Positions 24,013-60,220 of a DNA stretch of 60,369 nt are shown in pieces. Under the pieces are notes generated by a model that was not told where the DNA came from, did not search any database, and saw only the letters and a program-made list of their open reading frames with translations. The stretch's first letter is position 1. Each line of letters starts with the position of its first letter. Location of the stretch: positions 1 through 60,369 of the IMG/VR virus record IMGVR_UViG_3300042514_000542. One strand, written 5' to 3'. The stretch comes from a virus. The position numbers and the translations under genes were made by a program.

Positions 24013-24015
24013 CAT

Positions 24016-25814: not shown

Positions 25815-25820
25815 ACGCAT

Positions 25821-28875: not shown

Positions 28876-28896
28876 TAATTAAAACCGAAGTATAAT
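28876..28896 (+). promoter_or_regulatory. Early promoter box for the 28904 gene
   Basis: AATTAAAACCGAA plus TATAAT (28891-28896), 7 nt before ATG 28904; no TTGACA. Confidence 0.75.
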
Positions 28897-28903
28897 ACAG
28901 TAT

Positions 28904-29993: not shown

Positions 29994-30011
29994 TTAAAAC
30001 CGAAATACAAT
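29991..30011 (+). promoter_or_regulatory. Early promoter box for the M23-like gene
   Basis: TAATTAAAACCGAAA and TACAAT (30006-30011), exactly 6 nt before ATG 30018. Confidence 0.8.
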
Positions 30012-30017
30012 ACGAAC

Positions 30018-30557
30018 ATGTGGTATCCATTAAACATTCATACAAACAATAGAGGTCTTCCAATTAACGCACATCCGGGTTCTTTTGGACACGCTAGAAA
30101 ATATAACTTCCACGAAGGAATTGATTTATACGGCAACGAAGGAGATTGGGTTTATGCCATGAAGGATGGTGTGGTAATATCCAATGAACGCTTCACAGGA
30201 CCATCTGTGGGTCATGATTGGCATCTGTCTCAAGCCGTAACAATCAAATCCGATACTGAATATTTTGTATATGGCGAACTTAAAAGTGATCTAAAGATTG
30301 GTGAATTCGTTAAAATGGGTACTAAGATTGGAGAACTTGTTCCTGTATTACCTAAAGAGAAAATCAGACCAGATATTCCAGAACATAGTAACGTGATGTT
30401 ACATCTTGAGAAATGGAATTTTAAATATGATCCAGTCGTTGGGTGGAAACCTTGGAAGACTAGATATGATAGACCAGAGTGGTTGGAAGATCCCACAAAT
30501 GATTTAATTGAAGCACTTAGAAATAAGCATCATCCTGTAAAACTATTAACAATGTAA
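30018..30557 (+). CDS. M23/LytM-like peptidase domain protein
   Basis: 179 residues. FHEGIDLYGNEGDWVYAMKD supplies the HxxxD zinc ligands and the G-x-x-V-x-A turn of M23 peptidases; GELKSDLKIGEFVKMGTKIG and the late MLHLEKW (HxE instead of the usual HxH) follow. No signal peptide. The altered second motif leaves activity uncertain. Expressed from an early promoter, so it is not an obvious lysis enzyme. Confidence 0.72.
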   Translation: MWYPLNIHTNNRGLPINAHPGSFGHARKYNFHEGIDLYGNEGDWVYAMKDGVVISNERFTGPSVGHDWHLSQAVTIKSDTEYFVYGELKSDLKIGEFVKMGTKIGELVPVLPKEKIRPDIPEHSNVMLHLEKWNFKYDPVVGWKPWKTRYDRPEWLEDPTNDLIEALRNKHHPVKLLTM

Positions 30558-48664: not shown

Positions 48665-48791
48665 ATACATTCATCCCCTTCATAAGATTTCCTTATGATC
48701 TTTTCCTTATAGTCCTAAGACTTAGTAGTATCGGTATCACTACTATCTTCCGGTGAGGCTACCCACGCTTATGCCTTGATAACATATTGTT
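48664..48791 (-). ncRNA. Possible short structured early RNA
   Basis: Region between two promoters without a credible gene. On the minus strand it contains AGTAGT/ACTACT, CTAAG/CTTAG and CATAAG/CTTATG hairpins. Candidate small RNA from the promoter at 48792-48811. Confidence 0.35.
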
Positions 48792-48811
48792 ATTCTACTT
48801 CGGTTTTAATT
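48792..48811 (-). promoter_or_regulatory. Early promoter without clear gene
   Basis: AATTAAAACCGAAG and TAGAAT; the ATG 6 nt downstream opens only an 8-codon frame. Confidence 0.65.
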
Positions 48812-48830: not shown

Positions 48831-49055
48831 CTATTGGGAAATCTTTGCTTGAAGAGCTTCAATCTCTTGATGAAGAGCAATCTTCTTAAGTTCTACGATG
48901 ATTGTCTTAAGAACATCGAAAGGATAAACCAGTATGGAATAGTTTCCATATACAAAGTTCACAATCCTGTTATTAAGGTTTGCTTGGTTTGATGCACGCT
49001 TGGCAGCATCTATAAGTGTTTCGGAATTGTTCTTAGTAATGTTGATCGGTTTCAT
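48831..49055 (-). CDS. Hypothetical protein
   Basis: 74 residues, mixed (INITKNNSETLIDAAKRASN, LKTIIVELKKIALHQEIEAL); helical, not recognised. Early promoter 9 nt upstream. Confidence 0.7.
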   Translation of the reverse strand: MKPINITKNNSETLIDAAKRASNQANLNNRIVNFVYGNYSILVYPFDVLKTIIVELKKIALHQEIEALQAKISQ

Positions 49056-49064
49056 GATACCCTA

Positions 49065-49084
49065 ATTCTAGTTCGGTTTTAATT
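49065..49084 (-). promoter_or_regulatory. Early promoter for the 49055 gene
   Basis: AATTAAAACCGAAC, TAGAAT, 9 nt to ATG. Confidence 0.8.
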
Positions 49085-49225
49085 AATGAGATTTGGTATG
49101 TGTGACAATTTGACGCACTGTATATGTTTTATAACACTTAGATAAGTTTATCAAATCAAATTGTTTGTCATATCGACAAAGTTATACTGGTGATAATGAT
49201 ATAATTATATCAATGAGTAATGGGA

Positions 49226-49399
49226 TTAATTAGTTGGAGTATGTATGACTTGCTCACCAGACTTCTCACAAAGAACTACGGTAACATCATAAGACTTCTT
49301 AGCCTTAAATGTTGTAGCAGCTTTTTGTTGAGCTTCATAAGAAGTGTTGGCATAGACTTCAATCGACTTACCTTTATAGAATGCTTTGTATCCGTTCAT
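49226..49399 (-). CDS. Small conserved-type phage protein
   Basis: 57 residues: MNGYKAFYKGKSIEVYANTS, YEAQQKAATTFKAKKSYDVT, ending VIHTPTN. The layout is that of a small protein family frequent in tailed phages, function unknown. Own promoter 6 nt before ATG. Confidence 0.75.
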   Translation of the reverse strand: MNGYKAFYKGKSIEVYANTSYEAQQKAATTFKAKKSYDVTVVLCEKSGEQVIHTPTN

Positions 49400-49405
49400 G
49401 TTACT

Positions 49406-49425
49406 ATTCTAGTTCGGTTTTAATT
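49406..49425 (-). promoter_or_regulatory. Early promoter for the 49399 gene
   Basis: AATTAAAACCGAAC, TAGAAT, 6 nt to ATG; contains the stop codon of the upstream gene. Confidence 0.85.
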
Positions 49426-49879
49426 ACATGTGGTTCCAATCAATGGATACCAACTTACCATTCTTCAATCCCATATTGAAATCATGGGTATCACATACAT
49501 CAAATTTATTATGTAAGAACTTAACAAACTTGACATACTTCTTATATATCTTAGTCTCCATCTTTTCTGAAGTCTCAAAAGGCCATAGATCTACCTTAAA
49601 CTTCTCACACTTCTCTTGAATCATGACATTAAATTCATGATTACCTTTGAAGTATTGTAGGTTAGCAAAATGTTTATCACATGGGACTTCCTTAATCTCA
49701 TTATAACTACGTTGAATCTTAATGACATACTCATATCCCTTACGAGAATATACAGTTGATTCACAACCTCTTCCAATCACATTAAATCCTTTTGATTCAA
49801 GATACTCATAAGCCTTCTCAATATCAGTCATTTGAAGAAGTTTATTAACCAAAAACATTGTAACGCTGTTCAGTTTCAT
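49424..49879 (-). CDS. Protein-kinase-like fold protein
   Basis: 151 residues. GFNVIGRGCESTVYSRKGYE then YVIKIQ resembles a glycine loop and lysine strand; CDTHDFNMGLKNGKLVSIDW resembles the catalytic loop and metal-binding Asp of kinase-like proteins. It is short for a kinase. It could modify host proteins early in infection, but activity is unproven. Confidence 0.62.
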   Translation of the reverse strand: MKLNSVTMFLVNKLLQMTDIEKAYEYLESKGFNVIGRGCESTVYSRKGYEYVIKIQRSYNEIKEVPCDKHFANLQYFKGNHEFNVMIQEKCEKFKVDLWPFETSEKMETKIYKKYVKFVKFLHNKFDVCDTHDFNMGLKNGKLVSIDWNHM

Positions 49880-49885
49880 GCTATA

Positions 49886-49905
49886 AGTCTAGTTCGGTTT
49901 TAATC
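49886..49905 (-). promoter_or_regulatory. Early promoter for kinase-like gene
   Basis: GATTAAAACCGAAC, TAGACT, 6 nt to ATG. Confidence 0.8.
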
Positions 49906-50003
49906 ACTAAAAAGTTCAGATTTTCTCTAGGGAAAAATCACTTATATCCCTTACAGTATATAGGATTTCTCAAAACATCATTTCTGTTAGATTTAATCGT
50001 TTT

Positions 50004-50261
50004 TCAATCAAATTCTTTCCTAATACCATCCTTTTCATAGTCTCCATAACCCTTCATATATTCTTCTATCTCTTTAGGAGTTAGATTAGTCTCTCTTTCT
50101 CCCATAGAATCATAATAATGAGGTTTTGGACTTCTACTATAATAGTAATCAGCTTCACCTCTTTCTTTAGGTGTTTGAGTATATCTTGACTTAGTTACAT
50201 TCTTATTACAGAAGTGAACACTCATTGACATGATACTCTCATTACATTTCGGGCAGTTCAT
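50004..50261 (-). CDS. Hypothetical zinc-finger-like protein
   Basis: 85 residues. N-terminal MNCPKCNESIMSMSVHFCNK has CxxC and a later HxC, a possible zinc finger; the rest is Tyr/Glu-rich and probably disordered. Confidence 0.7.
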   Translation of the reverse strand: MNCPKCNESIMSMSVHFCNKNVTKSRYTQTPKERGEADYYYSRSPKPHYYDSMGERETNLTPKEIEEYMKGYGDYEKDGIRKEFD

Positions 50262-50267
50262 AACCCT

Positions 50268-50287
50268 ATTCTAGTTCGGTTTTAATT
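50268..50287 (-). promoter_or_regulatory. Early promoter for the 50261 gene
   Basis: AATTAAAACCGAAC, TAGAAT, 6 nt to ATG. Confidence 0.85.
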
Positions 50288-50435
50288 AATCTATGTATGT
50301 AATAAAAGACATGAATAATATAAGACCAGCACATATACCAGTAGCACCTGCTGCATCATTTAAATTTACTTGTAATAGGATTCCCATTACCATAATAAGT
50401 AAGAGTGATATAATGAATGAATAAAGTGGTTTCAT
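50286..50435 (-). CDS. Small membrane protein
   Basis: 49 residues with two hydrophobic helices (FIISLLLIMVMGILL and GICAGLILFMSFITY). It lies 8 nt after the 50944 gene and is probably cotranscribed with it. Confidence 0.65.
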   Translation of the reverse strand: MKPLYSFIISLLLIMVMGILLQVNLNDAAGATGICAGLILFMSFITYID

Positions 50436-50443
50436 TGTATTGT

Positions 50444-50944
50444 TTAATCAATAGTAAGTTCCTTCTTAGCCTTCACAAGATCATCAATGATACTGATAGG
50501 GAATGTTTGACATCCCACTTTAATAGTATTCTCTGTTACAGTTGCATTATGAGCTTCATTAAGTTTTACTTCTACTTCCTTTGGTTTTTCAATGATTCTA
50601 CCATAGTCAAGATAAGTTCCAGATGTTCTATTCCACAACCTGATAGTATTAGACTCGATTATGATACTTTGAACTTTATGCTGTAGGATTTTATTATTAT
50701 TATTTCTCCAATATACAGAAGTTCCAATCATCTTATAAGCTTTTACAATCTTATCTTCGAATGTTTCTGTTTCCACAAGTTCAAAGTAATCCGGATCCCA
50801 TGAAGAAGATATTTCTTCAAACCTAATACATGTTGGATTTATACTTTCAACGGTTAGAACTTTATCTTTATGATCCCAATTATTTTTAAATTGATATTTT
50901 TTGATTCTACGAACTTTATCTCCTACTTTAAATTTAACTTTCAT
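50444..50944 (-). CDS. KOW/SH3-like protein with C-terminal GCQT module
   Basis: 166 residues. N-terminal KVKFKVGDKVRRIKKYQF is a KOW-like barrel start, paralogous to the start of the 51963 gene. The C-terminal motif NTIKVGCQTFPISIIDDL recurs in the 60194 gene (NVGIAVGCQTITFEKF). Modular early protein, possibly nucleic-acid binding. Confidence 0.7.
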   Translation of the reverse strand: MKVKFKVGDKVRRIKKYQFKNNWDHKDKVLTVESINPTCIRFEEISSSWDPDYFELVETETFEDKIVKAYKMIGTSVYWRNNNNKILQHKVQSIIIESNTIRLWNRTSGTYLDYGRIIEKPKEVEVKLNEAHNATVTENTIKVGCQTFPISIIDDLVKAKKELTID

Positions 50945-50950
50945 ATTATT

Positions 50951-50970
50951 ATTCTACTTCGGTTTTAATT
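50951..50970 (-). promoter_or_regulatory. Early promoter for the 50944 gene
   Basis: AATTAAAACCGAAG, TAGAAT, 6 nt to ATG. Confidence 0.85.
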
Positions 50971-51087
50971 AATCCTATATTCTCCTATCTTCCTATTACT
51001 ATAAAACTTTTACCAATTCATTACTTGTGTTATTATGACATACTTATACTGTGTCATTTTGTCCCATCATATAAGTTTATTGGGGTC

Positions 51088-51963
51088 TTATTGAACTAAT
51101 TCAAACGTATTATTAATGATGTAAGATGTTTTTTCATTGTAACCGGGAATATTAATAAATATCACTTCACCGTCTTTATGCATCACTTCATACTTCATAC
51201 CCTTCTTTCTAATGGGTGTGTCAACAAGATTAATAACCCAATCACCAACTTTTACATCATAAATAGTTCTATGAATTTTAGGTTTTTCGTCTTGTAATAG
51301 TTTATTAAGAATATCCAGTGTAAATTCCCCTGCACCAATTTTTACTGATTCAATTTTACGATCACCATTAGCATAGTTATTCTCATTAGCCTTTAGAAAC
51401 TTCCTAGCTGATTGTAGAATACTATTATCAATTTTGGCACAACCAAAGTCATAACCATAAGAAGTCTTCTTTGCTGAATAACCATTAATCTTCACATCTT
51501 CCCAAGGTTCTGGTTTATATTCCTCAATAGGGAGAATAACGGGATATAACATCCTATTAGTATTATCCCATCTTCCTACAAGACATATAACAATACCATA
51601 CTTGTCCAAGGTATCATTGAAATCTTTAATGAGTGTTTGAGTTGGGTTGTTAAGTTCATTGACATTTGTATAACATTGAACGCCAGCTACCAGACCCGAT
51701 TTTGAGGTGTTTTCTTTGTTAAAAGGTTTGATTCTTTTACCAATATAGGACTTTGCCAGTTTGATTTGTTCTTCAATGGTGAGAGTTTTATTCACCAATT
51801 CAAACCTATATGGATACCAGAAACTAGGAACACCTTCAAGATATACATAGCTATCACTAACAGTGCTAATGGTATGAATAGATCCCAGAGGTAATAGATA
51901 CTCTCCACCCCTATCCATATTAATAACCTTTACTTTATCTCCAACCTTAAATGTGTGTGTCAT
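51088..51963 (-). CDS. Modular early protein with KOW-like ends
   Basis: 291 residues. Begins HTFKVGDKVKVINMDRGGEY, a barrel like that of the 50944 protein; ends with another (IYDVKVGDWVINLVDTPIRK). A middle region (LTIEEQIKLAKSYIGKRIKP) precedes ESVKIGAGEFTLDILNKLL, a relative of the GCQT module. Function unknown. Confidence 0.7.
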   Translation of the reverse strand: MTHTFKVGDKVKVINMDRGGEYLLPLGSIHTISTVSDSYVYLEGVPSFWYPYRFELVNKTLTIEEQIKLAKSYIGKRIKPFNKENTSKSGLVAGVQCYTNVNELNNPTQTLIKDFNDTLDKYGIVICLVGRWDNTNRMLYPVILPIEEYKPEPWEDVKINGYSAKKTSYGYDFGCAKIDNSILQSARKFLKANENNYANGDRKIESVKIGAGEFTLDILNKLLQDEKPKIHRTIYDVKVGDWVINLVDTPIRKKGMKYEVMHKDGEVIFINIPGYNEKTSYIINNTFELVQ

Positions 51964-51969
51964 ATTGTT

Positions 51970-51988
51970 ATTCTATTTCGTTTTAATT
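51970..51988 (-). promoter_or_regulatory. Early promoter, box with one-base deletion
   Basis: AATTAAAACGAAA and TAGAAT, 6 nt to ATG; one C is missing from the AAAACCGAA box. Confidence 0.75.
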
Positions 51989-52026
51989 ACGAGCCTTTTT
52001 ATGTCTTGCTCAGGACGTTTGTTATA

Positions 52027-53544
52027 TTAGTCTTCCTTGTTCCTACGGGTAGGGCAATCTGTGATATGAACCAATTGTTTCATGGCACGGGTTGTCGCAA
52101 CGTATTGTAAGTTTTGTTCTTGTTCCAATTGCCAAGGTTGAACTGCATACTTGCTAGGGCTAAACTGTGCATCCCCAAGCCAATATACTCTTTCCCATTC
52201 CAATCCCTTAGCCTTATGAATGCTTGAGAGAGTGACAATATCAGGACAGTTCTTATCATCCGCATCAGTGAACATCTCTGTGATAAGTTTTTCCAAAGAA
52301 CCCAAGTCATTTTGTCCCAAGGACTGACAACGTTCAATAAGAATAATCATGGTATCCATCTTATCTTCAAGCAATTGAAGCTTGGCATAGGATGCTTTCT
52401 CAAACTCTTTGTTAAAGAACTCCACAAGCTTTTGAGTGAAGTCTGTAAGATCAGTAACCCTTTTCCACTTACGAACAAGCTTCTTAAGATCATTACCAAT
52501 ATCCCTACCTTCAATGCGGCATCCAATACCTTGTCTAATAAGAGCAAAGGCCAATGCTACGTTAGGTGCATTATTCCTACAAATAATACCATCTTTACCG
52601 CTGAAATTCATTGTAGGAACTTCATCCAAGAACTTATCATAAGTAGTTGAGAGAATTTCACCATCAGGGGATTGATCCCAAGCTTCAATATCCTCGAAAT
52701 ACTTCTTAGCTTCTGTGATGATATTCTTACCGCAACGATAGCAGGTTGTAAGAGGAAGTTCCGTGCAATTGAACATATCCTTAATAAGATTCATGGAATC
52801 ATTCTCAGCACCAGTAAAGCCATAGATAGCTTGTCCTTCATCACCGATAGACATAAGACGACCGGAAGGCTTAAGAAGAACCTTAAGAAGAAGTTTGCGG
52901 CATACATTAGTATCCTGTGCTTCGTCAATGATTACCCAATCATATTGTGTTCCCTGAATCTTATAGATCAAAGGAAGATATTGCATATCATCAAAGTCAA
53001 TGACCTTGGCATCACGATTGGAGTCCTTAAGAACATCCTTGGCAATCTCAATAACTTGTCCAAGGTCTGCATCAAAGTTCATCTCAATATCATGATGTTG
53101 AATAATGTCCATCCATGCTTTAGTATCATCAATAGATGTTTGTCCTTCAACTCCAAAGGCATTCTGCTTTGCAAAGCCTACAAGCTTTGTAATGAAGTTA
53201 CGAGTAACTCCAAGTTCAGGAGTATTACAATACTTATCTGTAATCCAAAAGACCTTAGAACCATCAACCTTGTGCCATCCAAGAGCCTTATAAAGAAGTT
53301 CTTTACCAGCGGAATGAACTGTGGCAGCTTTGGCATTAGGTAATGCCATGTTGGAAAGCTTATTCTGAAGTTGCACACTTGCTTTCTTATTAAAAGCCAT
53401 TGCAAGAACATTACCCTTCATATATTGAATGGAATGAACCGCAGTAGTTGTCTTACCACTTCCTGCACGGGCTTTGATAATAAGATTACCATTACCATTA
53501 AGAACCCAATCGTAAATGTCTTGCTGTTGTTTGCTTGCTTGCAT
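52027..53544 (-). CDS. UvrD/Rep-like SF1 helicase
   Basis: 505 residues. Superfamily 1A DNA helicase with all motifs: I IKARAGSGKTTT, II VIIDEAQD, III GDEGQAIYGFTGA, IV CYRCG, V LSSIHKAKGLEWE, VI LQYVATTRA. Shorter than UvrD (about 720 residues), similar to phage Dda-class accessory helicases in role; likely supports replication or recombination. Own early promoter with TAGAAT 6 nt before ATG. Confidence 0.93.
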   Translation of the reverse strand: MQASKQQQDIYDWVLNGNGNLIIKARAGSGKTTTAVHSIQYMKGNVLAMAFNKKASVQLQNKLSNMALPNAKAATVHSAGKELLYKALGWHKVDGSKVFWITDKYCNTPELGVTRNFITKLVGFAKQNAFGVEGQTSIDDTKAWMDIIQHHDIEMNFDADLGQVIEIAKDVLKDSNRDAKVIDFDDMQYLPLIYKIQGTQYDWVIIDEAQDTNVCRKLLLKVLLKPSGRLMSIGDEGQAIYGFTGAENDSMNLIKDMFNCTELPLTTCYRCGKNIITEAKKYFEDIEAWDQSPDGEILSTTYDKFLDEVPTMNFSGKDGIICRNNAPNVALAFALIRQGIGCRIEGRDIGNDLKKLVRKWKRVTDLTDFTQKLVEFFNKEFEKASYAKLQLLEDKMDTMIILIERCQSLGQNDLGSLEKLITEMFTDADDKNCPDIVTLSSIHKAKGLEWERVYWLGDAQFSPSKYAVQPWQLEQEQNLQYVATTRAMKQLVHITDCPTRRNKED

Positions 53545-53550
53545 GATACT

Positions 53551-53570
53551 ATTCTAGTTCGGTTTTAATT
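53551..53570 (-). promoter_or_regulatory. Early promoter for helicase
   Basis: AATTAAAACCGAAC, TAGAAT, 6 nt to ATG 53544. Confidence 0.87.
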
Positions 53571-53717
53571 AGGCTCAACTTCTACTGTAACACCGTGCAT
53601 ATATACCCAAGTTTTCTTATGGTAATATGCTTGTGATCTACACCACGAAGTTCTACCACGAAAGTCCATATATGCCACTATACCATTAGGGTATGTAATC
53701 TTTAGAGAGTATTTCAT
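53565..53717 (-). CDS. Small hypothetical protein
   Basis: 50 residues: MKYSLKITYPNGIVAYMDFR, then GRTSWCRSQAYYHKKTWVYM. Beta-rich; its MKYS start resembles that of the 54114 protein. Overlaps the upstream gene by 4 nt. Confidence 0.68.
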   Translation of the reverse strand: MKYSLKITYPNGIVAYMDFRGRTSWCRSQAYYHKKTWVYMHGVTVEVEPN

Positions 53718-53911
53718 ATGGCACTTACAGTCATTGTATCGAAATCCACTTTTGTAGGAAATGTATTAGCGATTTCACCAGCCCATTTCTTACACACTCC
53801 AAAGAATACTTCTTCCCCCTTGTTGAAGTATGCCCACTTCTTATCAATAGGATCGAAGAACTTATAATCAAATAGAATGTTTTTACTTTCGATTAGAATT
53901 TTTACTTTCAT
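53714..53911 (-). CDS. Hypothetical protein
   Basis: 65 residues: MKVKILIESKNILFDYKFFD and KWAYFNKGEEVFFGVCKKWA; not recognised. First of a two-gene unit. Confidence 0.7.
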   Translation of the reverse strand: MKVKILIESKNILFDYKFFDPIDKKWAYFNKGEEVFFGVCKKWAGEIANTFPTKVDFDTMTVSAI

Positions 53912-53917
53912 AACCCT

Positions 53918-53937
53918 ATCGTAGTTCGGTTTTAATT
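53918..53937 (-). promoter_or_regulatory. Early promoter for the 53911 gene
   Basis: AATTAAAACCGAAC, TACGAT, 6 nt to ATG. Confidence 0.8.
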
Positions 53938-53961
53938 ATTCACAGTAATTTATATATCCAT

Positions 53962-54114
53962 TTATAATAAAGCTCTGTACTTTACATTGACATCAACAAT
54001 GTCATCATCATCAAATTCACCAGATAGAACTTTTTCTTCGGCATCTTCTTGTGAATCTGCTTCGATTTCAAATTCTGTATATTTTTCTTGATATAGTGTT
54101 ACTGAGTATTTCAT
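53962..54114 (-). CDS. Small acidic protein
   Basis: 50 residues: MKYSVTLYQEKYTEFEIEAD, then SQEDAEEKVLSGEFDDDDIV. The pattern of a strand followed by S-x-x-x-A-x-x-K helix is frequent in small phage proteins. No promoter box directly upstream; it follows a tRNA on the minus strand. Confidence 0.68.
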   Translation of the reverse strand: MKYSVTLYQEKYTEFEIEADSQEDAEEKVLSGEFDDDDIVDVNVKYRALL

Positions 54115-54129
54115 ATTATTAATTAAAGA

Positions 54130-54202
54130 TGGGAAGGAACTATAAGACTCGAACTTATACCACCGCGATCAACGGCATTCTATCCAGTTAAACTAAGTCC
54201 TT
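54130..54202 (-). tRNA. tRNA, probably Ile (GAT), atypical
   Basis: Acceptor AAGGACT/GTTCCTT with one mismatch and a terminal CCA; anticodon stem GCCG/CGGT, loop TTGATCG giving GAT but with an unusual C37; T-arm ATAAG-TTCGAGT-CTTAT. Confidence 0.65.
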
Positions 54203-54209
54203 CGTTATA

Positions 54210-54395
54210 TTAATACATGTTGGAGTTGGAAGTAGAACTCGTAGCCATAAGACCACGATCTTTAATGATAGCAGTTGGACGACTACCAATAGACTTCTTA
54301 ATAACAATTCCAACATTCTTAGCTTTGGTGAAGCTGATTTGTGGAAAAGAACTCTTAAGTTGCTTTTGTGGGGCGCGGAAGTAATTGTTGCTCAT
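54210..54395 (-). CDS. Basic hypothetical protein
   Basis: 61 residues, basic (FRAPQKQLKSSFPQISFTKA, KKSIGSRPTAIIKDRG); probably small and partly disordered. Not recognised. It ends 7 nt before the tRNA at 54202. Confidence 0.65.
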   Translation of the reverse strand: MSNNYFRAPQKQLKSSFPQISFTKAKNVGIVIKKSIGSRPTAIIKDRGLMATSSTSNSNMY

Positions 54396-54404
54396 TGTAG
54401 TGTA

Positions 54405-54424
54405 ATTGTAGTTCGGTTTTAATT
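54405..54424 (-). promoter_or_regulatory. Early promoter for the 54395 gene
   Basis: AATTAAAACCGAAC, TACAAT, 9 nt to ATG. Confidence 0.8.
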
Positions 54425-54710
54425 AGTTACTAGCCATCTTAACTAGAAGAGTGATTTCAGTATCCTCATCTTCTGAATCTTTCATATAGATAGTTGTTCC
54501 ATCAAAGTAAATCTCTTGTTCTTCTTCAATGAATGCCACACTATATTCATTGAAGTCTGAATCATCCCAAGAGCAATACAACCATTGATGATCTGAATCA
54601 CCAGTAAGTTCATCAACAGATGGATAACAAAGACCATCACGATCAATAATAACAGCCCAAGACTTCTCAATAAGATCAAAGGCTTCCTGTAATGTAATTA
54701 GTTTCTTCAT
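54423..54710 (-). CDS. Acidic hypothetical protein
   Basis: 95 residues, very acidic (YCSWDDSDFNEYSVAFIEEE, MKDSEDEDTEITLL). Acidity could mean DNA mimicry, but nothing else supports that. Confidence 0.7.
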   Translation of the reverse strand: MKKLITLQEAFDLIEKSWAVIIDRDGLCYPSVDELTGDSDHQWLYCSWDDSDFNEYSVAFIEEEQEIYFDGTTIYMKDSEDEDTEITLLVKMASN

Positions 54711-54716
54711 GTCGTA

Positions 54717-54736
54717 ATTGTAGTTCGGTTTTAATT
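54717..54736 (-). promoter_or_regulatory. Early promoter for the 54710 gene
   Basis: AATTAAAACCGAAC, TACAAT, 6 nt to ATG. Confidence 0.85.
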
Positions 54737-54738
54737 AA

Positions 54739-54891
54739 TCAAAACAGCCTAATAATACATGCAAATATGATATTACCACATATGATGAATACCCAAGTTT
54801 CCCATTCATCGAGGGTGCATCCAATTATACCTAGAAATAAACCCCAAAAGAATCCAAATATAATTTGTAGTAGTAGTAGTAGTATAAGCAT
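54739..54891 (-). CDS. Small membrane protein
   Basis: 50 residues, two hydrophobic helices (LILLLLLQIIFGFFWGLFLG and WVFIICGNIIFACIIRLF). It begins 9 nt after the Pth2-like gene and is likely cotranscribed. Confidence 0.62.
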   Translation of the reverse strand: MLILLLLLQIIFGFFWGLFLGIIGCTLDEWETWVFIICGNIIFACIIRLF

Positions 54892-54899
54892 ATTTTTAA

Positions 54900-55469
54900 T
54901 TAGTTACTTGCCAGTCGAAAACCCTTAAGGTATTGCCTAAGCTTTTCTTGATAAGATGATTCATTGAAATCACCATCCTTTGCACCATAGATTGTTTCTG
55001 GAACAATGAATGCAATGGCACTAAGAGAGTTATTAAGATCAGGCTCATAAAAGCCTGTATGATTAATACCAAATTCCCACAACTCTGTTTTACGTTGGAT
55101 CATATCATTAGAACCACCACCATCCAATAGAATGAATGTCTTATGATAAGCTGCAAACATTTTATATTGTTCGATATGCCCATAGGTAAGACTGTATTCG
55201 ACAGCAGCATGACCCGCCTGAATACCTTTTTGTATGCCTGAAAGGTTATACATAACAAAAAAATACATTCTAAGTCCGTTATGTTTAGGGCTTCCTACCA
55301 CTGGTTCGATTTCATGGGGATTAAACCCTACAAAATCACTATCATGTTCCTTGATCAGAACACCAAGACTACCATTTCCATAAGCCCCGACCTCTTTAAT
55401 AAGACCGCTTTTAAGAACTTTAAACTTAGAACCAATAGGATATTTTTTTACCACTTCTTCTCTTGTCAT
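54900..55469 (-). CDS. Peptidyl-tRNA hydrolase Pth2-like protein
   Basis: 189 residues. An N-terminal barrel-like segment (PIGSKFKVLKSGLIKEVGAY) precedes a domain beginning YFFVMYNLSGIQKGIQAGHA, which resembles the G-x-x-x-x-Q-x-x-HA signature of Pth2, and AAYHKTFILLDGGGSN. Pth2 recycles peptidyl-tRNAs. The match is to the motif pattern only; a related phage family of other function is possible. It would fit the translation theme of the genome. Confidence 0.55.
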   Translation of the reverse strand: MTREEVVKKYPIGSKFKVLKSGLIKEVGAYGNGSLGVLIKEHDSDFVGFNPHEIEPVVGSPKHNGLRMYFFVMYNLSGIQKGIQAGHAAVEYSLTYGHIEQYKMFAAYHKTFILLDGGGSNDMIQRKTELWEFGINHTGFYEPDLNNSLSAIAFIVPETIYGAKDGDFNESSYQEKLRQYLKGFRLASN

Positions 55470-55475
55470 AATACT

Positions 55476-55495
55476 ATTGTATTTCGGTTTTAATT
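55476..55495 (-). promoter_or_regulatory. Early promoter for Pth2-like gene
   Basis: AATTAAAACCGAAA, TACAAT, 6 nt to ATG 55469. Confidence 0.85.
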
Positions 55496-55501
55496 AAGAA
55501 A

Positions 55502-55593
55502 TGGTAGGGACGGTCGGAATTGAACCGACAAAGGAGTTATCCACTCCATACCCGATTATGAGTCGGAACCATTACCATTCTGGCCACATCCCT
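55502..55593 (-). tRNA. Class II tRNA with CAT anticodon
   Basis: Acceptor AGGGATG/CGTCCCT, A73 and CCA encoded; anticodon stem TCCGA/TCGGG, loop CTCATAA; long variable arm GGAG/CTCC; T-arm GTCGG-TTCAATT-CCGAC. CAT in a tRNA with a long variable arm is unusual. Confidence 0.85.
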
Positions 55594-55631
55594 TTTAATA
55601 TACCTGCTCTAACCAATTGAGCTACAAGCAC
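55594..55631 (-). pseudogene. Truncated tRNA, 5' half only
   Basis: GTGCTTG followed by a canonical D-arm (GCTC-AATTGGTTA-GAGC); the sequence then runs directly into the class II tRNA with no T-arm or 3' acceptor. Confidence 0.65.
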
Positions 55632-55639
55632 TTATGTAT

Positions 55640-55720
55640 TTATTTAAATATAACATCGCATATTGCGTATCCTATAACAGCACCTATGAATAATAGTATT
55701 AGAAGTATTAGAAGTTCCAT
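55640..55720 (-). CDS. Very small membrane peptide
   Basis: 26 residues, MELLILLILLFIGAVIGYAI then CDVIFK: one hydrophobic helix. It starts 5 nt after the 55932 gene. Real but tentative. Confidence 0.5.
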   Translation of the reverse strand: MELLILLILLFIGAVIGYAICDVIFK

Positions 55721-55725
55721 AATGT

Positions 55726-55932
55726 TTATTCGTATTTCTTAAAGATAACTTTATCCCTTCCATATTTATAACATAGTCCAATAATTAATATAAAAATACC
55801 CATGAATGATAACATCACACACATCAAAAGATCCATGAGTGTGACATATGAATGGCATCGAAATAGAGTTAAACATCCATAGAATCCTGATAGAAACCAG
55901 AGGATGATTGAAATGATAATGATTGATTCCAT
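55726..55932 (-). CDS. Small membrane protein
   Basis: 68 residues with two transmembrane helices (IIIISIILWFLSGFYGCLTL and LLMCVMLSFMGIFILIIGL) and a basic C-terminus. Not recognised. Confidence 0.7.
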   Translation of the reverse strand: MESIIIISIILWFLSGFYGCLTLFRCHSYVTLMDLLMCVMLSFMGIFILIIGLCYKYGRDKVIFKKYE

Positions 55933-55938
55933 GTTATT

Positions 55939-55958
55939 ATTATAGTTCGGTTTTAATT
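55939..55958 (-). promoter_or_regulatory. Early promoter for the 55932 gene
   Basis: AATTAAAACCGAAC, TATAAT, 6 nt to ATG. Confidence 0.87.
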
Positions 55959-55964
55959 AATAAG

Positions 55965-56048
55965 TGCCGCCACCCGGACTCGAACCGGGATACCCATAAG
56001 GGCGACGGATTTTAAATCCGTAGTGTCTACCAATTCCACCATGGCGGC
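55965..56048 (-). tRNA. tRNA-Leu (TAA)
   Basis: Class II. Acceptor GCCGCCA/TGGCGGC; anticodon stem ACGGA/TCCGT, loop TTTAAAA; variable arm; T-arm CCCGG-TTCGAGT-CCGGG; discriminator A. Confidence 0.94.
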
Positions 56049-56058
56049 ATTATACTAC

Positions 56059-56271
56059 TTAATCAACAATCTCATATTCGTAATTTTCAATCTTTTCAAA
56101 TGCTACTTCCCATCCATCAAGTTGTATGATTTGTGCCATTTCCATCATATCATACTTCTCCAAAGAGTCAAACTTATCCTCAAACTCTTGTGCGACTTTT
56201 TCCGCCAGTTCTTCCGATTCATTAGTCCTAAGAGTATAGAACCTAAGATCATTGTGCATCTTTGCTGTCAT
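56059..56271 (-). CDS. Acidic hypothetical protein
   Basis: 70 residues, acidic and helical (ESEELAEKVAQEFEDKFDSL). It ends 11 nt upstream of tRNA-Leu. Not recognised. Confidence 0.7.
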   Translation of the reverse strand: MTAKMHNDLRFYTLRTNESEELAEKVAQEFEDKFDSLEKYDMMEMAQIIQLDGWEVAFEKIENYEYEIVD

Positions 56272-56277
56272 ACCTAA

Positions 56278-56297
56278 ATTATAGTTCGGTTTTAATT
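56278..56297 (-). promoter_or_regulatory. Early promoter for the 56271 gene
   Basis: AATTAAAACCGAAC, TATAAT, 6 nt to ATG. Confidence 0.87.
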
Positions 56298-56463
56298 ACA
56301 GAATGCTTGCTGCCTTATCCCACATAACATCAACTAGTGGTTGAATTGTCTCATGTTTTCCGGGTGTTGATGTAATAGTAAGTTCTCCATCTTCTTCCCT
56401 TTGAATACGAAAGATATAAATCTCACCATCAACTTCAATAGTTGTAGTAATTTCCCTTTTCAT
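56296..56463 (-). CDS. Small hypothetical protein
   Basis: 55 residues: MKREITTTIEVDGEIYIFRI, then QREEDGELTI and VDVMWDKAASIL. A beta strand pair and helix; not recognised. Overlaps the upstream gene (TAATG). Confidence 0.68.
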   Translation of the reverse strand: MKREITTTIEVDGEIYIFRIQREEDGELTITSTPGKHETIQPLVDVMWDKAASIL

Positions 56464-56735
56464 TAGAGATATTTCTTAAGGATTTCAAAATCATCAGTAG
56501 ATACTTCTACCACTTTGGAAACTTTATACATAAGTTGCCCACCAGCATCTTCATACCAACCATATTCATTAGGGGGAGTATTATCTTCTCTATCATGACT
56601 TTCCCCTTGAATAGCATATTCGATAGCGTCCTCCACATTATCCACAGAATGAATAAGATGTTTGGAACCTTTCCCAAATTCTCCATCTTGAATTTTAAGA
56701 TGGACTAGGTAGTTTTTAGGTGTTTCGTCTTTCAT
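56463..56735 (-). CDS. Hypothetical protein
   Basis: 90 residues: NYLVHLKIQDGEFGKGSKHL, DNVEDAIEYAIQGE, STDDFEILKKYL. Ferredoxin-like alternation of strands and helices is suggested; function unknown. First gene of a two-gene unit. Confidence 0.7.
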   Translation of the reverse strand: MKDETPKNYLVHLKIQDGEFGKGSKHLIHSVDNVEDAIEYAIQGESHDREDNTPPNEYGWYEDAGGQLMYKVSKVVEVSTDDFEILKKYL

Positions 56736-56741
56736 AACCTA

Positions 56742-56761
56742 ATTATAGTTCGGTTTTAATT
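56742..56761 (-). promoter_or_regulatory. Early promoter for the 56735 gene
   Basis: AATTAAAACCGAAC, TATAAT, 6 nt to ATG. Confidence 0.87.
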
Positions 56762-56890
56762 AATGGGCTTTGCCTTTATCTTCTTTGCGTTTTTTATAAT
56801 TACATCTTTGTTCTGAATAATGAATGGGAGAATGATAGGAATAGCATCAACAAAAGCATTCCATAGAAAGATAAGAATTTTACTTTTCAT
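56756..56890 (-). CDS. Small hypothetical membrane-associated protein
   Basis: 44 residues, MKSKILIFLWNAFVDAIPII then a basic tail (NAKKIKAKPIN). Overlaps the upstream gene by 4 nt. Confidence 0.65.
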   Translation of the reverse strand: MKSKILIFLWNAFVDAIPIILPFIIQNKDVIIKNAKKIKAKPIN

Positions 56891-57228
56891 TTTCTAAATC
56901 CTTGAAATCCAATTAGACCTAAGAATAATCCACCAACAGTTCTTAGAACAAACAGTGTCCCGAAACTACATGCAATGAAAGGATCGATAAATCGTTCATT
57001 GACGAACCACATAATAAATGCGATCAGGGGAATACATACAATAGCCATAGTAGCATCGGCATATTCATCAATCTTTAATAGTTTGGAGAATGTCCAACAT
57101 CCAAACAAACTTATAATAAGTCCAATGATATATCCGAAAAGACCAAATGGTACTAAAAGATTTCCAAATAGAAAGATTGGAAGTCCTACCCACCAAGGTA
57201 AGTCAAATATGTATCTTATATATCTCAT
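56887..57228 (-). CDS. Multi-pass membrane protein
   Basis: 113 residues, about four hydrophobic segments (GLPIFLFGNLLVPFGLFGYI, AIVCIPLIAFIMWFV, GTLFVLRTVGGLFLGLIGF). Unlike most early genes it has no promoter box directly upstream; instead a 230-nt structured region precedes it. Confidence 0.72.
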   Translation of the reverse strand: MRYIRYIFDLPWWVGLPIFLFGNLLVPFGLFGYIIGLIISLFGCWTFSKLLKIDEYADATMAIVCIPLIAFIMWFVNERFIDPFIACSFGTLFVLRTVGGLFLGLIGFQGFRK

Positions 57229-57458
57229 TTAATTACAAAGTTTTAAATTACTTATTAATCAATACTCCTTATCGTGGGTCAACCTAGGATAAATGCCCCA
57301 CACATTTCACATTTATACGCTATTGAAGTAGACATGACTAAACTCGAATACGTCCTTATATAAGGAATACTGATTGATAAGTAATTTAATTGGTAAACCC
57401 CTATCCTACTTAACCATGTCATCAACACTGTTAGAGGTAGGATAGGGTTATAACCTTT
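57229..57458 (-). ncRNA. Structured intergenic region (candidate leader or small RNA)
   Basis: No gene here. A long imperfect stem joins 57245-57272 to 57357-57386; inside are GTGGG/CCCAC pairings; next to it a perfect 11-bp hairpin joins CCCTATCCTAC (57399-57409) to GTAGGATAGGG (57437-57447). It lies between the 57785 and 57228 genes. Confidence 0.5.
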
Positions 57459-57785
57459 TTATGCAGCAACTTCTTCAGTTGCTTCTTCAGCGGAATCATA
57501 TACAACTTCTTCGGTAGGAGTTGCAGTAGCTTCTGCTTTTGCAGCGACAAGTTGTGCTTCAATCTTAGCGATCTTAGCAATAATCTTAGCCTTTTGCTTC
57601 TCAATGGTAACTGTAGTTACCGCTTTAGTGAAGTCCTCATCAGAGGTGTCACCAAGGACAATAAGGGCAGCAGCAATGAACTCTTTATCAGAGACATTGA
57701 ACTTTTCCTTAAGGGTTGTGATGGTCGCCTTTGATTCGTCAGAGACATTCACAACGATTTGTTTCGTTTTTTGTTTCGTTTCCAT
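57459..57785 (-). CDS. Helical hypothetical protein with acidic tail
   Basis: 108 residues: QIVVNVSDESKATITTLKEK, a helical middle, and an Ala/Glu tail (EEVVYDSAEEATEEVAA). Organisation is similar to the 48132 protein (start METKQKTKQ vs MQTTKKQ; helical C-terminus). Followed by a hairpin at 57399-57447 that may terminate its mRNA. Confidence 0.7.
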   Translation of the reverse strand: METKQKTKQIVVNVSDESKATITTLKEKFNVSDKEFIAAALIVLGDTSDEDFTKAVTTVTIEKQKAKIIAKIAKIEAQLVAAKAEATATPTEEVVYDSAEEATEEVAA

Positions 57786-57794
57786 AACAGCTTT

Positions 57795-57814
57795 ATTATA
57801 TTTCGGTTTTAATT
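57795..57814 (-). promoter_or_regulatory. Early promoter for the 57785 gene
   Basis: AATTAAAACCGAAA, TATAAT, 9 nt to ATG. Confidence 0.82.
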
Positions 57815-57816
57815 AA

Positions 57817-58044
57817 TCAGAAATCCTCTTCTTCAATTTGTTCTTTGATTTCGTCAATATATTCTTGAAGAGAATCGTCAAATCCTACTACGATAGCAGC
57901 CTTATAAAGAACATGATCTTTTGGATCATTCCCATCCTTTATAAATTGTTTCAAATCTTCATATTCAGAATCGGATTCATCTATATAATTTCCAAGTTCC
58001 ATAGCAGCATCAAAGAACTCTTGACTTACAGTAATTGTTTTCAT
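57817..58044 (-). CDS. Acidic hypothetical protein
   Basis: 75 residues, strongly acidic (MELGNYIDESDSEYEDLKQF, EYIDEIKEQIEEEDF). Not recognised. Confidence 0.7.
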   Translation of the reverse strand: MKTITVSQEFFDAAMELGNYIDESDSEYEDLKQFIKDGNDPKDHVLYKAAIVVGFDDSLQEYIDEIKEQIEEEDF

Positions 58045-58050
58045 ATCGTA

Positions 58051-58070
58051 ATTGTATTTCGGTTTTAATC
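58051..58070 (-). promoter_or_regulatory. Early promoter for the 58044 gene
   Basis: GATTAAAACCGAAA, TACAAT, 6 nt to ATG. Confidence 0.85.
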
Positions 58071-58322
58071 AATGTCAATTTTATGAACACTCATAACCAT
58101 ATCTTCTTTGAGGTCTGGTTTAGGTTTATAGTTAGCTATAAGTGATTCCAGAAATGTTACATCCTTGGTCATATAATGATCAGTGTATATCCTACTGAAA
58201 TCGCTCCACCAATATACACTTCTACTAAACTTCATATCGTTAATGTCTGCGTATTCTGGGAAAAATATCCCCTTTCTAATAGCAAACATTCCATTATTAA
58301 ATTTTACGATTTTTACTTTCAT
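58065..58322 (-). CDS. Hypothetical protein
   Basis: 85 residues: MKVKIVKFNNGMFAIRKGIF, SRSVYWWSDFSRIYTDHYMT. A pattern recurring among small phage proteins; function unknown. Overlaps the upstream gene by 4 nt. Confidence 0.7.
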   Translation of the reverse strand: MKVKIVKFNNGMFAIRKGIFFPEYADINDMKFSRSVYWWSDFSRIYTDHYMTKDVTFLESLIANYKPKPDLKEDMVMSVHKIDID

Positions 58323-58642
58323 TGATCTTTATTTTCAATTTTATTGTGAAGTATAACTGCCATCAAAAGAGTGGTAGTAAGGAGATATGTGAATCCGAAC
58401 GCTTGGATATTATGTGTATAGAGAATCCAATAGTTGATACCCCATATCATAAGTTGTGGGATATGACTACTGAAATTAAATTTGGATAGTTTAACCATGT
58501 TTTTCTTCACAGTCATACCTACAACTATCAGAGATACTAACATCCAAGCCAAGACTTTAAAGAGTGTAATATCTAACACGAATGCAGTGTATACTATTAG
58601 AACTTCTATACCTAGAACTATTAATGTGTAAATTAGTTTCAT
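58319..58642 (-). CDS. Multi-pass membrane protein
   Basis: 107 residues with about four transmembrane segments (LIYTLIVLGIEVLIVYTAFV, VLAWMLVSLIVVGMTV, LMIWGINYWILYTH). ATG 58642 directly follows the TAA of the upstream gene. Not recognised. Confidence 0.7.
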   Translation of the reverse strand: MKLIYTLIVLGIEVLIVYTAFVLDITLFKVLAWMLVSLIVVGMTVKKNMVKLSKFNFSSHIPQLMIWGINYWILYTHNIQAFGFTYLLTTTLLMAVILHNKIENKDQ

Positions 58643-58643
58643 A

Positions 58644-58874
58644 TTATTCTTCGTATCCAAGTTTATGTGTTTCAATCCAACGATAGACAACCTCATCATC
58701 CTTAGTGATTTCCTTTGTCATAAGACCATGTTCAAATGCTTCCTTATAAGTATCAGATACACCTAGATTATATGGTCTTGTGTACTTAGGGAAACACGCA
58801 ACCGATACAAACATAAATGCAATGATTGCAAGTAGGAAAAGAACACCTAAAATGTTTTTAATTTCTTCTAACAT
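58644..58874 (-). CDS. Small membrane protein
   Basis: 76 residues: one N-terminal transmembrane helix (GVLFLLAIIAFMFVSVA) and a soluble C-terminus (YKEAFEHGLMTKEITKDDE). First gene of a three-gene coupled unit with a variant promoter. Confidence 0.68.
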   Translation of the reverse strand: MLEEIKNILGVLFLLAIIAFMFVSVACFPKYTRPYNLGVSDTYKEAFEHGLMTKEITKDDEVVYRWIETHKLGYEE

Positions 58875-58877
58875 AAT

Positions 58878-58895
58878 ATTCTTTCGGTTTTTATC
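58878..58895 (-). promoter_or_regulatory. Divergent copy of the early promoter box
   Basis: GATAAAAACCGAAAGAAT, 3 nt before ATG 58874 by this reading; overlaps the stop of the upstream peptide gene. Confidence 0.5.
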
Positions 58896-58986
58896 AACGG
58901 GATAAGTTACTTGACAGCATGATAATACATACAATGATGGTTATCAATACTCCCATAAGAAGTGACCACATAGTTGATTCTGACAT
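58894..58986 (-). CDS. Small membrane peptide
   Basis: 30 residues, MSESTMWSLLMGVLITIIVC then IIMLSSNLSR: one hydrophobic helix. It lies 4 nt after the preceding peptide gene. Confidence 0.52.
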   Translation of the reverse strand: MSESTMWSLLMGVLITIIVCIIMLSSNLSR

Positions 58987-58990
58987 AATG

Positions 58991-59074
58991 TTAATAGATT
59001 AGTGATAGGGAAACCGCAGTAACAATAGCACCAACTAAGGCTCCAAGGAAGAATGTGATTATAATTTCTTTCAT
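58991..59074 (-). CDS. Small membrane peptide
   Basis: 27 residues, MKEIIITFFLGALVGAIVTA then VSLSLIY: one hydrophobic helix. It has a canonical early promoter 6 nt upstream, which supports expression. Confidence 0.6.
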   Translation of the reverse strand: MKEIIITFFLGALVGAIVTAVSLSLIY

Positions 59075-59080
59075 GTTGCT

Positions 59081-59100
59081 ATTGTAGTTCGGTTTTAATT
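59081..59100 (-). promoter_or_regulatory. Early promoter for the 59074 peptide gene
   Basis: AATTAAAACCGAAC, TACAAT, 6 nt to ATG. Confidence 0.85.
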
Positions 59101-59106
59101 AAATGG

Positions 59107-59214
59107 ATTAGGGTGATAGAATTATTCTTTGAAAGATCTAGATGGGAAGCCTAGATAAGTGTCGGGAACAATTCCCGTCTTTTATTCTCTATACTTTTGA
59201 GCGTTTACCCTAAA
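59107..59214 (-). ncRNA. Candidate three-way-junction RNA element
   Basis: TTAGGGT (from 59107) can pair with ACCCTAA near 59208-59214, enclosing hairpins ATCTAG/CTAGAT and CGGGAA/TTCCCG. No gene in this 120-nt gap. Function unknown. Confidence 0.35.
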
Positions 59215-59219
59215 TTATT

Positions 59220-59735
59220 TCAATCTACATCAGATGGTAGGTCAAGAAGATTGTCTAGCTTAATAGTAAAGCACAGAAGATCTTTCTCTGGTTCAAGAAG
59301 TTTTTTAGCATCACTATTGGTAAGATAGGTAGCAAACTCATCCTTGGTAACTTCCTTACCATCAGCATAGAATACTGTTTGAGTCTTATGGTTATTACCT
59401 TGACTTGGATATAGGCGAAGATACAGTTCATCTTTGTGTTCAATGACATAGGGGAACCAAGACTTCTTAGTAAGCTTATCCTCATACCATTGACCCCATG
59501 GTAGTTCTTGAACTTCACCACGTTCACCAGCAGCAATAGCATCCTTTACAGCAGAGAGGTTAGCATAATTAACTCCAGCTTGAACAACAGCAACAGAACG
59601 TTTTTCAAGTAGAACATTCTTATGTTCAGCTTTAGGTTTAGGATTAGACTTCCATGCAGCCTTAACAAAGTTACCCTTTGCATTAAGGATTTTATCACGG
59701 ACGGATGCAGCATCTAGTTTAGTATTCGTTTTCAT
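59220..59735 (-). CDS. Hypothetical protein
   Basis: 171 residues. AGVNYANLSAVKDAIAAGER, VQELPWGQWYEDKL, FPYVIEHKDELYLRLYPS form a pattern known from other phages without assigned function. Basic N-terminus. Own early promoter. Confidence 0.73.
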   Translation of the reverse strand: MKTNTKLDAASVRDKILNAKGNFVKAAWKSNPKPKAEHKNVLLEKRSVAVVQAGVNYANLSAVKDAIAAGERGEVQELPWGQWYEDKLTKKSWFPYVIEHKDELYLRLYPSQGNNHKTQTVFYADGKEVTKDEFATYLTNSDAKKLLEPEKDLLCFTIKLDNLLDLPSDVD

Positions 59736-59744
59736 TGTAGTAGT

Positions 59745-59764
59745 AGTATAGTTCGGTTTTAATT
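59745..59764 (-). promoter_or_regulatory. Early promoter for the 59735 gene
   Basis: AATTAAAACCGAAC, TATACT, 9 nt to ATG. Confidence 0.8.
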
Positions 59765-60194
59765 AATGTTTATCCTTCTTAAACTCATCAACCTTATCCG
59801 AAATCTCTTGGAATTTTTCAAAGGTAATGGTTTGACAGCCCACAGCAATACCCACATTATTAATTTTAGCTGTATATCCAGCCACATCGTTGACTTCATA
59901 AACCTTTGGAGGATTAGGATTAGTGAAAAAATCAATAATCTTTGAAATATCTTCTGGATACTCGAAAGGATATTTACTTTCTTCTCGAACGCGAGATCCA
60001 ATGGTATAATCATGTTTGATATACAGAACCGGATAATCCATATCCATTTGATGTAGCCTAGGGTTTGGTTCCTTAAACCCCATAACAGTAATGGGACATT
60101 GGGTGAAGTTGTGTAACAGATGATAAACGGCAAGTTTATCTTCTTTGGTGTGTGTTTTGATTGACAGTTCTTTATATTCGTTTTTCATATTCAT
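59763..60194 (-). CDS. Hypothetical protein with C-terminal GCQT module
   Basis: 143 residues. The C-terminal NVGIAVGCQTITFEKFQEIS is shared in pattern with the 50944 protein. The N-terminal 90 residues (LLHNFTQCPITVMGFKEPNP) are unrecognised. Start ATG 60194 is fixed by the promoter 6 nt upstream. Confidence 0.7.
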   Translation of the reverse strand: MNMKNEYKELSIKTHTKEDKLAVYHLLHNFTQCPITVMGFKEPNPRLHQMDMDYPVLYIKHDYTIGSRVREESKYPFEYPEDISKIIDFFTNPNPPKVYEVNDVAGYTAKINNVGIAVGCQTITFEKFQEISDKVDEFKKDKH

Positions 60195-60200
60195 GTTTAT

Positions 60201-60220
60201 ATTATATTTCGGTTTTAATT
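60201..60220 (-). promoter_or_regulatory. Early promoter for the 60194 gene
   Basis: AATTAAAACCGAAA, TATAAT, 6 nt to ATG. Confidence 0.87.

Follow-up and report, generated by a model that had tools for sequence, protein, structure and literature searches.

Early and late promoters of a T4-like jumbo phage family appear to be built for leaderless mRNA

Why should the early genes of a large viral genome be preceded, one after another, by the same short cassette that sets the start codon at a nearly constant distance from a -10 hexamer? The question is raised by IMG/VR virus record IMGVR_UViG_3300042514_000542 (206,590 bp; G0 below), of which bases 1-60369 form the window, i.e., the whole 60,369-nucleotide stretch that was analysed. 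The cassette consists of a 13-bp box (AATTAAAACCGAA in G0), a spacer base, a -10 hexamer of the form TANNNT and, mostly 6 nt further on, the ATG of an open reading frame (ORF). The genes behind it are presumed to be early from their layout and promoter type. We propose that these cassettes, and the late promoters of the same phage, are built for leaderless mRNA, a reading drawn from sequence to which we give a probability of about 0.88.

All 22 cassettes named in the sequence-only reading are present as described, 19 of them in positions 49065-60220 and three at 25795, 28877 and 29992. The distance from the -10 to the ATG is, as had been counted, 6 nt in 17, 9 nt in four (49084, 54424, 57814 and 59764) and 7 nt in one (28877). 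The box at 51988 is a variant, AATTAAAACGAAA, which has no spacer base before the -10. Four boxes lack an ORF and stand ahead of a tRNA or a non-coding RNA (21438, 23907, 26046 and 28689). The cassettes and two of these boxes are as follows.

49053..49084, minus strand: box, TAGAAT, 9 nt, ATG of ORF 48831-49055
49397..49425, minus strand: box, TAGAAT, 6 nt, ATG of ORF 49226-49399
49877..49905, minus strand: GATTAAAACCGAA, TAGACT, 6 nt, ATG of ORF 49424-49879
50259..50287, minus strand: box, TAGAAT, 6 nt, ATG of ORF 50004-50261
50942..50970, minus strand: box, TAGAAT, 6 nt, ATG of ORF 50444-50944
51961..51988, minus strand: variant cassette, AATTAAAACGAAA-TAGAAT, 6 nt, ATG of ORF 51088-51963
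53542..53570, minus strand: box, TAGAAT, 6 nt, ATG of UvrD-like helicase 52027-53544
53909..53937, minus strand: box, TACGAT, 6 nt, ATG of ORF 53714-53911
54393..54424, minus strand: box, TACAAT, 9 nt (ACA before ATG), ORF 54210-54395
54708..54736, minus strand: box, TACAAT, 6 nt, ATG of ORF 54423-54710
55467..55495, minus strand: box, TACAAT, 6 nt, ATG of ORF 54900-55469
55930..55958, minus strand: box, TATAAT, 6 nt, ATG of ORF 55726-55932
56269..56297, minus strand: box, TATAAT, 6 nt, ATG of ORF 56059-56271
56733..56761, minus strand: box, TATAAT, 6 nt, ATG of ORF 56463-56735
57783..57814, minus strand: box, TATAAT, 9 nt (GTT before ATG), ORF 57459-57785
58042..58070, minus strand: cassette with a TTGACA -35, GATTAAAACCGAA, TACAAT, 6 nt, ATG of ORF 57817-58044
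59072..59100, minus strand: box, TACAAT, 6 nt, ATG of short ORF from 59074
59733..59764, minus strand: box, TATACT, 9 nt (ACA before ATG), ORF 59220-59735
60192..60220, minus strand: box, TATAAT, 6 nt, ATG of ORF 59763-60194
48783..48811, minus strand: box, TAGAAT, 6 nt, ATG of an ORF of only 8 codons (outside the 22)
25795..25823, plus strand: cassette with a TTGACA -35, box, TATAAT, 6 nt, ATG of ORF 25821-26051
28877..28906, plus strand: box, TATAAT, 7 nt, ATG of ORF 28904-29248
29992..30020, plus strand: box, TACAAT, 6 nt, ATG of ORF 30018-30557
26046..26065, plus strand: box and TATAAT without ORF, promoter of a conserved non-coding RNA
28689..28708, plus strand: box and TATAAT 5 nt ahead of tRNA-Asp (28714), the tRNA being likewise leader-free

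Does the spacing hold throughout the genome? The pattern AATTAAAACCGAA-N-TANNNT has 56 matches in the complete record and 0 in a control with the pattern read backwards. Among the 53 cassettes of G0 that lead into an ORF of at least 25 codons, the distance is 6 nt in 41, 9 nt in six, 7 nt in three, 8 nt in two and 5 nt in one. It does not vary freely, as it would have done had the sequence-only reading been wrong; against a uniform spread over 4-9 nt, 41 of 53 has a probability of ~4e-22. The same peak is obtained when starts are taken from coding potential only, with TA[TCG]AAT/ACT lying 6 nt upstream of 31 genes and at each of the other distances upstream of 0-8 genes. The stop codon of the upstream gene, said to be often built into the box, ends inside it in 26 of the 53. 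The statement that nearly every early transcription unit carries the box was too broad, since not every early gene does: a promoter is found at 43 of the 109 minus-strand genes between 48 and 110 kb.

The spacing is also kept by relatives. A helicase search provided four contigs (67-79% identity), and seven genomes were compared, namely G0, G1 (211,724 bp), G3, G9, G10, G11 and G12 (150 kb, possibly partial). In G1, which has the same box as G0, 50 of 56 ORFs lie at 6 nt, as do 36 of 53 in other contigs, and across IMG/VR the exact cassette pattern occurs in 23 stretches with 6 nt and in four with 7 nt. In G3, which is without the G0 box, AAACACTA precedes a TANNNT hexamer that likewise stands 6 nt from the ATG. 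Altogether there are three related box versions, AATTAAAACCGAA (G0, G1), AAACACTAGAA (G3, G9) and TAAAAACTAGA (G10, G11), every one of which ends beside the -10 with the same 6 nt to the ATG; in G12 no clear box was recognised. Orthologues that have an early promoter at the start and differ in the box were found in five pairs between G0 and G3, six between G0 and G9, and three between G0 and G10. The first T of TANNNT lies ~12 bp before the start codon, the position that marks TA-led leaderless genes, a class defined for bacteria (PMC3160421) and tested experimentally in Deinococcus (PMC12340547).

The strongest evidence for predicted leaderless transcripts is a start-site signature. The preferred start of bacterial RNA polymerase lies 7 bp past the -10, where a purine forms +1 and a pyrimidine stands at -1 (PMC5730371); the same preference has been reported for M. 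tuberculosis (PMC3898074). In the seven genomes, 171 of 172 early promoters with 6-nt spacing have a pyrimidine directly before the ATG (T 86, C 85, A 1). In control genes that have no promoter at their start, the corresponding figure is 820 of 1282 (64%, with C at 15%; Fisher P 1.5e-29). The 9-nt class is informative as to what the signature follows: 25 of 26 cases have A or G at 7 bp from the -10 and 21 of 26 have T or C just ahead of that position, while directly before the ATG the bases are mixed. The signature thus tracks the -10 and not the ATG, and the start site would therefore be fixed, with the ATG normally placed on it. A promoter without a protein-coding gene points to the same position. 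The box at 26046 leads into the following element.

26072..26155, plus strand: predicted structured non-coding RNA, nearly identical in G1, fold z-score -3.9

Its predicted fold opens with a base pair exactly 6 nt past the -10, where the start site is predicted to be. The RNA is nearly unchanged in G1, while the proteins average 64% identity. It has no Rfam match, and an exact-sequence search in viral contigs returned G1 only.

A transcript opening at its AUG has no room for a Shine-Dalgarno sequence, and the absence expected on that ground is borne out in so far as enrichment over shuffled sequence is not clear in any of the seven genomes. Four-base matches are as numerous as in the shuffles in G0, G9, G10 and G11, fewer in G12, and slightly more numerous in G1 and G3. 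The same code detects enrichment in T4 (27 of 48 genes, 6.5 in shuffles), Sf-CH1b, X1 and HTVC008M. As for the G0 genes that have no promoter at their start, 106 of 184 begin within 15 nt of the upstream stop or overlap it, with peaks of the coupling distance at the ATGA overlap (-4) and at +1. The simplest model is that the first gene of a unit would be leaderless and the following genes would be reached by coupled reinitiation. Among candidate translation switches, the search for a phage S21 or S1-domain protein was negative, and the translational repressor RegA gave no phmmer match, which is a weak negative.

Leaderless expression had been ascribed to the early region. The early geometry is confirmed; the restriction to early genes is not, since late genes have an equivalent geometry with TAAATA 5 nt before the ATG. 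This element lies exactly 5 nt before the start of 38 genes in G0, 33 in G1 and 45 in G3, with few at most other distances, and 5 nt is the clear mode in all seven genomes (33-45 genes per genome). In 48 gp23-surrounding loci from other contigs, pooled, TAAATA was found at 5 nt in 168 cases, at 6 nt in 50 and at 7 nt in 31. One example stands in the window beside the major capsid gene.

5958..5971, plus strand: predicted late leaderless promoter, TAAATA, 5 nt, ATG of ORF 5969-6853

In T4, position -13 is the first base of the late TATA box (PMC2988020). An 8-bp element beginning there ends at -6 and leaves five further bases, therefore +1 would be the A of the ATG; it is by this placement relative to the predicted +1 that the T4-type element of the phage family would occupy -13 to -6. 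The full octamer TATAAATA is rare, the TAAATA core being present with the first two bases relaxed (CTAAATA, TTAAATA). A gp55 late sigma is encoded in all seven genomes (PHROG 234, E value 1.7e-26), and the late 5-nt promoters have a pyrimidine at -1 in 224 of 254 cases. Examined by the same code, TAAATA lies mostly at 23-28 nt in T4, at 24-28 nt in Sf-CH1b and at 25-31 nt in Xanthomonas phage X1; the Syn9 sample, 19 genes, is too small to judge. Besides the main gp55 (177897-178343), G0 alone among the seven genomes encodes a second gp55-like late sigma of 114 amino acids (24657-25001, plus strand; PHROG 234, E value 2.8e-12), ~37% identical to the main one.

In the proposed mechanism, RNA polymerase would read the -10 (TATAAT, TACAAT or TAGAAT) with the aid of the adjoining upstream element (AATTAAAACCGAA in G0), which would substitute for a -35 box in most copies. 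RNA would begin at the preferred site 7 bp downstream of the -10, that is, at the A of the ATG, and the mRNA would open with AUG, or with a 3-nt leader in the 9-nt minority class. Initiation would proceed without a Shine-Dalgarno helix, presumably through a 70S ribosome binding the 5' AUG directly. Late genes would employ the T4-type element, TAAATA 5 nt before the ATG, read by the phage gp55 sigma, and more than half of the genes without a promoter of their own would start via stop-start coupling to the preceding gene. The leaderless mRNAs predicted by the sequence-only reading are thus supported by the -1/+1 signature, by the spacing kept with other boxes, by Shine-Dalgarno counts that do not clearly exceed the shuffles and by the matching start of the non-coding RNA.

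Several observations weigh against this mechanism. Shine-Dalgarno-like motifs are somewhat above the shuffles in G3 (33 vs 19.7). Alignment of orthologous early genes at their N-termini is rare between G0 and G3 (0 of 2 pairs). The -1 base of the conserved RNA at 26072 is A and no pyrimidine. In addition, ~45 genes per genome have neither a recognised promoter at the start nor a close upstream stop; for part of them the start is probably miscalled, and leadered genes may be among them.

Which protein recognises the box is a separate question. A TTGACA -35 at 15-18 bp was counted 7-10 times in G0, G1 and G9 (0-2 in the control) and is absent from most box promoters. The distance from the TTGACA promoters, a few of them boxed and the others not, to the ATG also peaks at 6-7 nt, and host-type promoters therefore follow the same placement rule. 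Three features of the box suggest that it co-evolves with a phage protein: in most copies it takes the place of the -35, it directly adjoins the -10, and it changes from clade to clade. No such box-reading protein was found. We consider the chances even that the box is the site of a phage activator or sigma-modifier, which would make these middle-type promoters of the T4 MotA kind and not early promoters served by the host alone. In favour, TTGACA is missing from most copies, and the box is replaced from one phage clade to another around a constant -10, which a co-evolving phage protein would lead one to expect. The MotA box, however, has its centre near -30 and is separated by 12-13 bp from the -10, whereas the present box ends 1 bp before it, and some copies do carry TTGACA, at 16 bp. 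A MotA homologue was not identified in a scan of few small proteins that included no MotA profile. Bacteroidota sigma-ABfr promoters (TTTG ... TANNTTTG) were considered as well and rejected, since in most of the seven genomes their count did not exceed that of the reversed control (16 vs 10 in G11).

The -10 itself drifts along the minus strand of G0 between 48811 and 60220, from TAGAAT/TAGACT (48.8-53.6 kb) to TACAAT (53.9-55.5 kb) and then to a mix of TATAAT and TACAAT; a gradation in strength or in timing may lie behind this. On the same strand, at 48238, 48356, 48581 and 48664, where ORFs are short or lacking, there are variant boxes in which AATTAAAACAGA precedes TGAGAAT, TGAGACT or TTAGACT, and G1 has comparable AATTAAAACCAAA-GTAAGAT boxes.

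A phage may also merely mirror a host that relies on leaderless or Shine-Dalgarno-free initiation, with nothing phage-specific in the arrangement, and here the arguments seem to us equally balanced. More than 20% of genes are leaderless in Actinobacteria and Deinococcus-Thermus (PMC3160421), the Deinococcus -10 sits 6-7 bp from the ORF (PMC12340547), and a phage S21 or S1-domain protein that might retune ribosomes is what the searches above failed to find. Such hosts, however, retain Shine-Dalgarno sequences elsewhere, while the phage family has none clearly, even inside operons; its GC content of 34-39% and its three box types likewise speak against simple mirroring. Going beyond leaderless promoters as such, one may speculate that a T4-like jumbo lineage abandoned the Shine-Dalgarno sequence altogether, all promoter classes starting at AUG and the remaining genes being coupled, and that this route, little used by the host, served with an initiator-like tRNA as a translational takeover. 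We regard this extension as doubtful.

Much less credible is the view that translation proceeds mainly from upstream read-through transcripts, with the box acting as an operator, attenuator or processing site. Read-through is physically possible, the boxes lying between tightly packed genes of the same strand and so often containing the upstream stop. Yet it would leave unexplained a consensus -10 at fixed distance and the pyrimidine-purine step at position 7, the would-be leader has no Shine-Dalgarno sequence, and boxes also stand ahead of isolated genes, a tRNA and a structured RNA. The least probable of all is that the spacing is a by-product of copying, one cassette having been duplicated by recombination and not yet diverged: the G0 13-mer is nearly invariant, as copying would predict, but conservation drops sharply at the edges of the elements (information is concentrated in the -1, the -10 and the box, with little in the upstream flank, most spacer bases and the coding start), relatives with another box hold the same spacing, and late promoters with an unrelated element share the placement.

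G0, a T4-like jumbo phage, has no close isolate. The major capsid protein is of T4 type and ~33% identical to cyanophage gp23, and the genome also encodes a gp20 portal, a T4-type terminase, a clamp loader, a B-family polymerase and ribonucleotide reductase. Since the nearest INPHARED gp23 relatives are only ~33% identical, no isolate with RNA data is close to it. One IMG/VR scan gave 362 confirmed gp23 relatives among the candidates, by which the phage family is widespread in the environment. Two distant gut contigs from the genome-contig search (48-49% gp23 identity) were not taken to indicate a host; the strict 5 nt is not kept by the late elements in them.

The window contains 23 tRNAs. 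At 21625-21696 and 21704-21778 (plus strand) are two with a CAT anticodon whose acceptor ends, read by eye, show a C1-A72 mismatch, which we take to be a mark of initiator tRNA; such tRNAs also occur in G3 and G10 and not in every relative. At 26752, 28082 and 29847 (plus strand) the ATG of an ORF lies 0-5 nt behind a tRNA 3' end, exactly adjacent at 29847, and tRNA 3' processing would there also leave an almost leaderless mRNA. ARAGORN places a tRNA with a CTA anticodon, of Pyl type, at 23941-24013 (plus strand), possibly an amber suppressor without recoding. A recoded stop codon was rejected for G0, where TAG ends 11 of 289 genes and the ORFs are intact under the standard code.

In bacteria leaderless mRNA usually counts as a minority mode, in phages as a rare curiosity. 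The present phage family appears to use it for early and late genes, and offers one system in which to ask how efficiently leaderless mRNA can sustain massive protein synthesis and whether phages use it to escape host initiation control. The three box versions add a further question, that of co-evolution between a promoter element and the protein reading it. In practice, the geometry can also serve as a rule by which start codons and promoters are located in these genomes, and it offers a clue in the search for a host.

Among known systems, the TA-led leaderless genes of bacteria (PMC3160421, PMC12340547, and in Mycobacterium PMC3898074) are alike in having TANNNT ~12 bp before the start, i.e., a 6-nt gap, a purine at +1, a pyrimidine at -1 and no leader. 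The present case differs from them in concerning a lytic phage, in the conserved 13-bp element abutting the -10, in the nearly or wholly absent Shine-Dalgarno sequence, and in late promoters read by a phage sigma that share the placement. T4 late promoters (gp55, TATAAATA) have in common with it the TAAATA core at the -10 position, a gp55 homologue and genes on both strands, but they lie 24-28 nt from the ATG with a Shine-Dalgarno sequence between, as compared with 5 nt here. T4 middle promoters likewise combine a -10 hexamer with a phage-specific box replacing the -35, although in the phage family the box abuts the -10 and its sequence is unrelated. Lambda cI is a leaderless phage mRNA that starts at the AUG, in a single gene, as against more than 100 promoters. 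Pelagibacter phage HTVC008M is intermediate: some of its late genes have TAAATA 5 nt before the ATG (six in 49 kb; 14 genome-wide vs 4 in the control), while most genes, unlike those of the phage family, retain a strong Shine-Dalgarno sequence. Huge phages with an S1-like protein (PMC7162821) are alike in being large and in the rarity of Shine-Dalgarno sequences, and unlike in that no S1-domain protein was found in the phage family. In the open-licence papers searched, no report was found of a large phage with leaderless geometry throughout. New in this comparison are the scale within a phage, the placement common to early, host-type and late promoters, the missing Shine-Dalgarno sequence, and the box.

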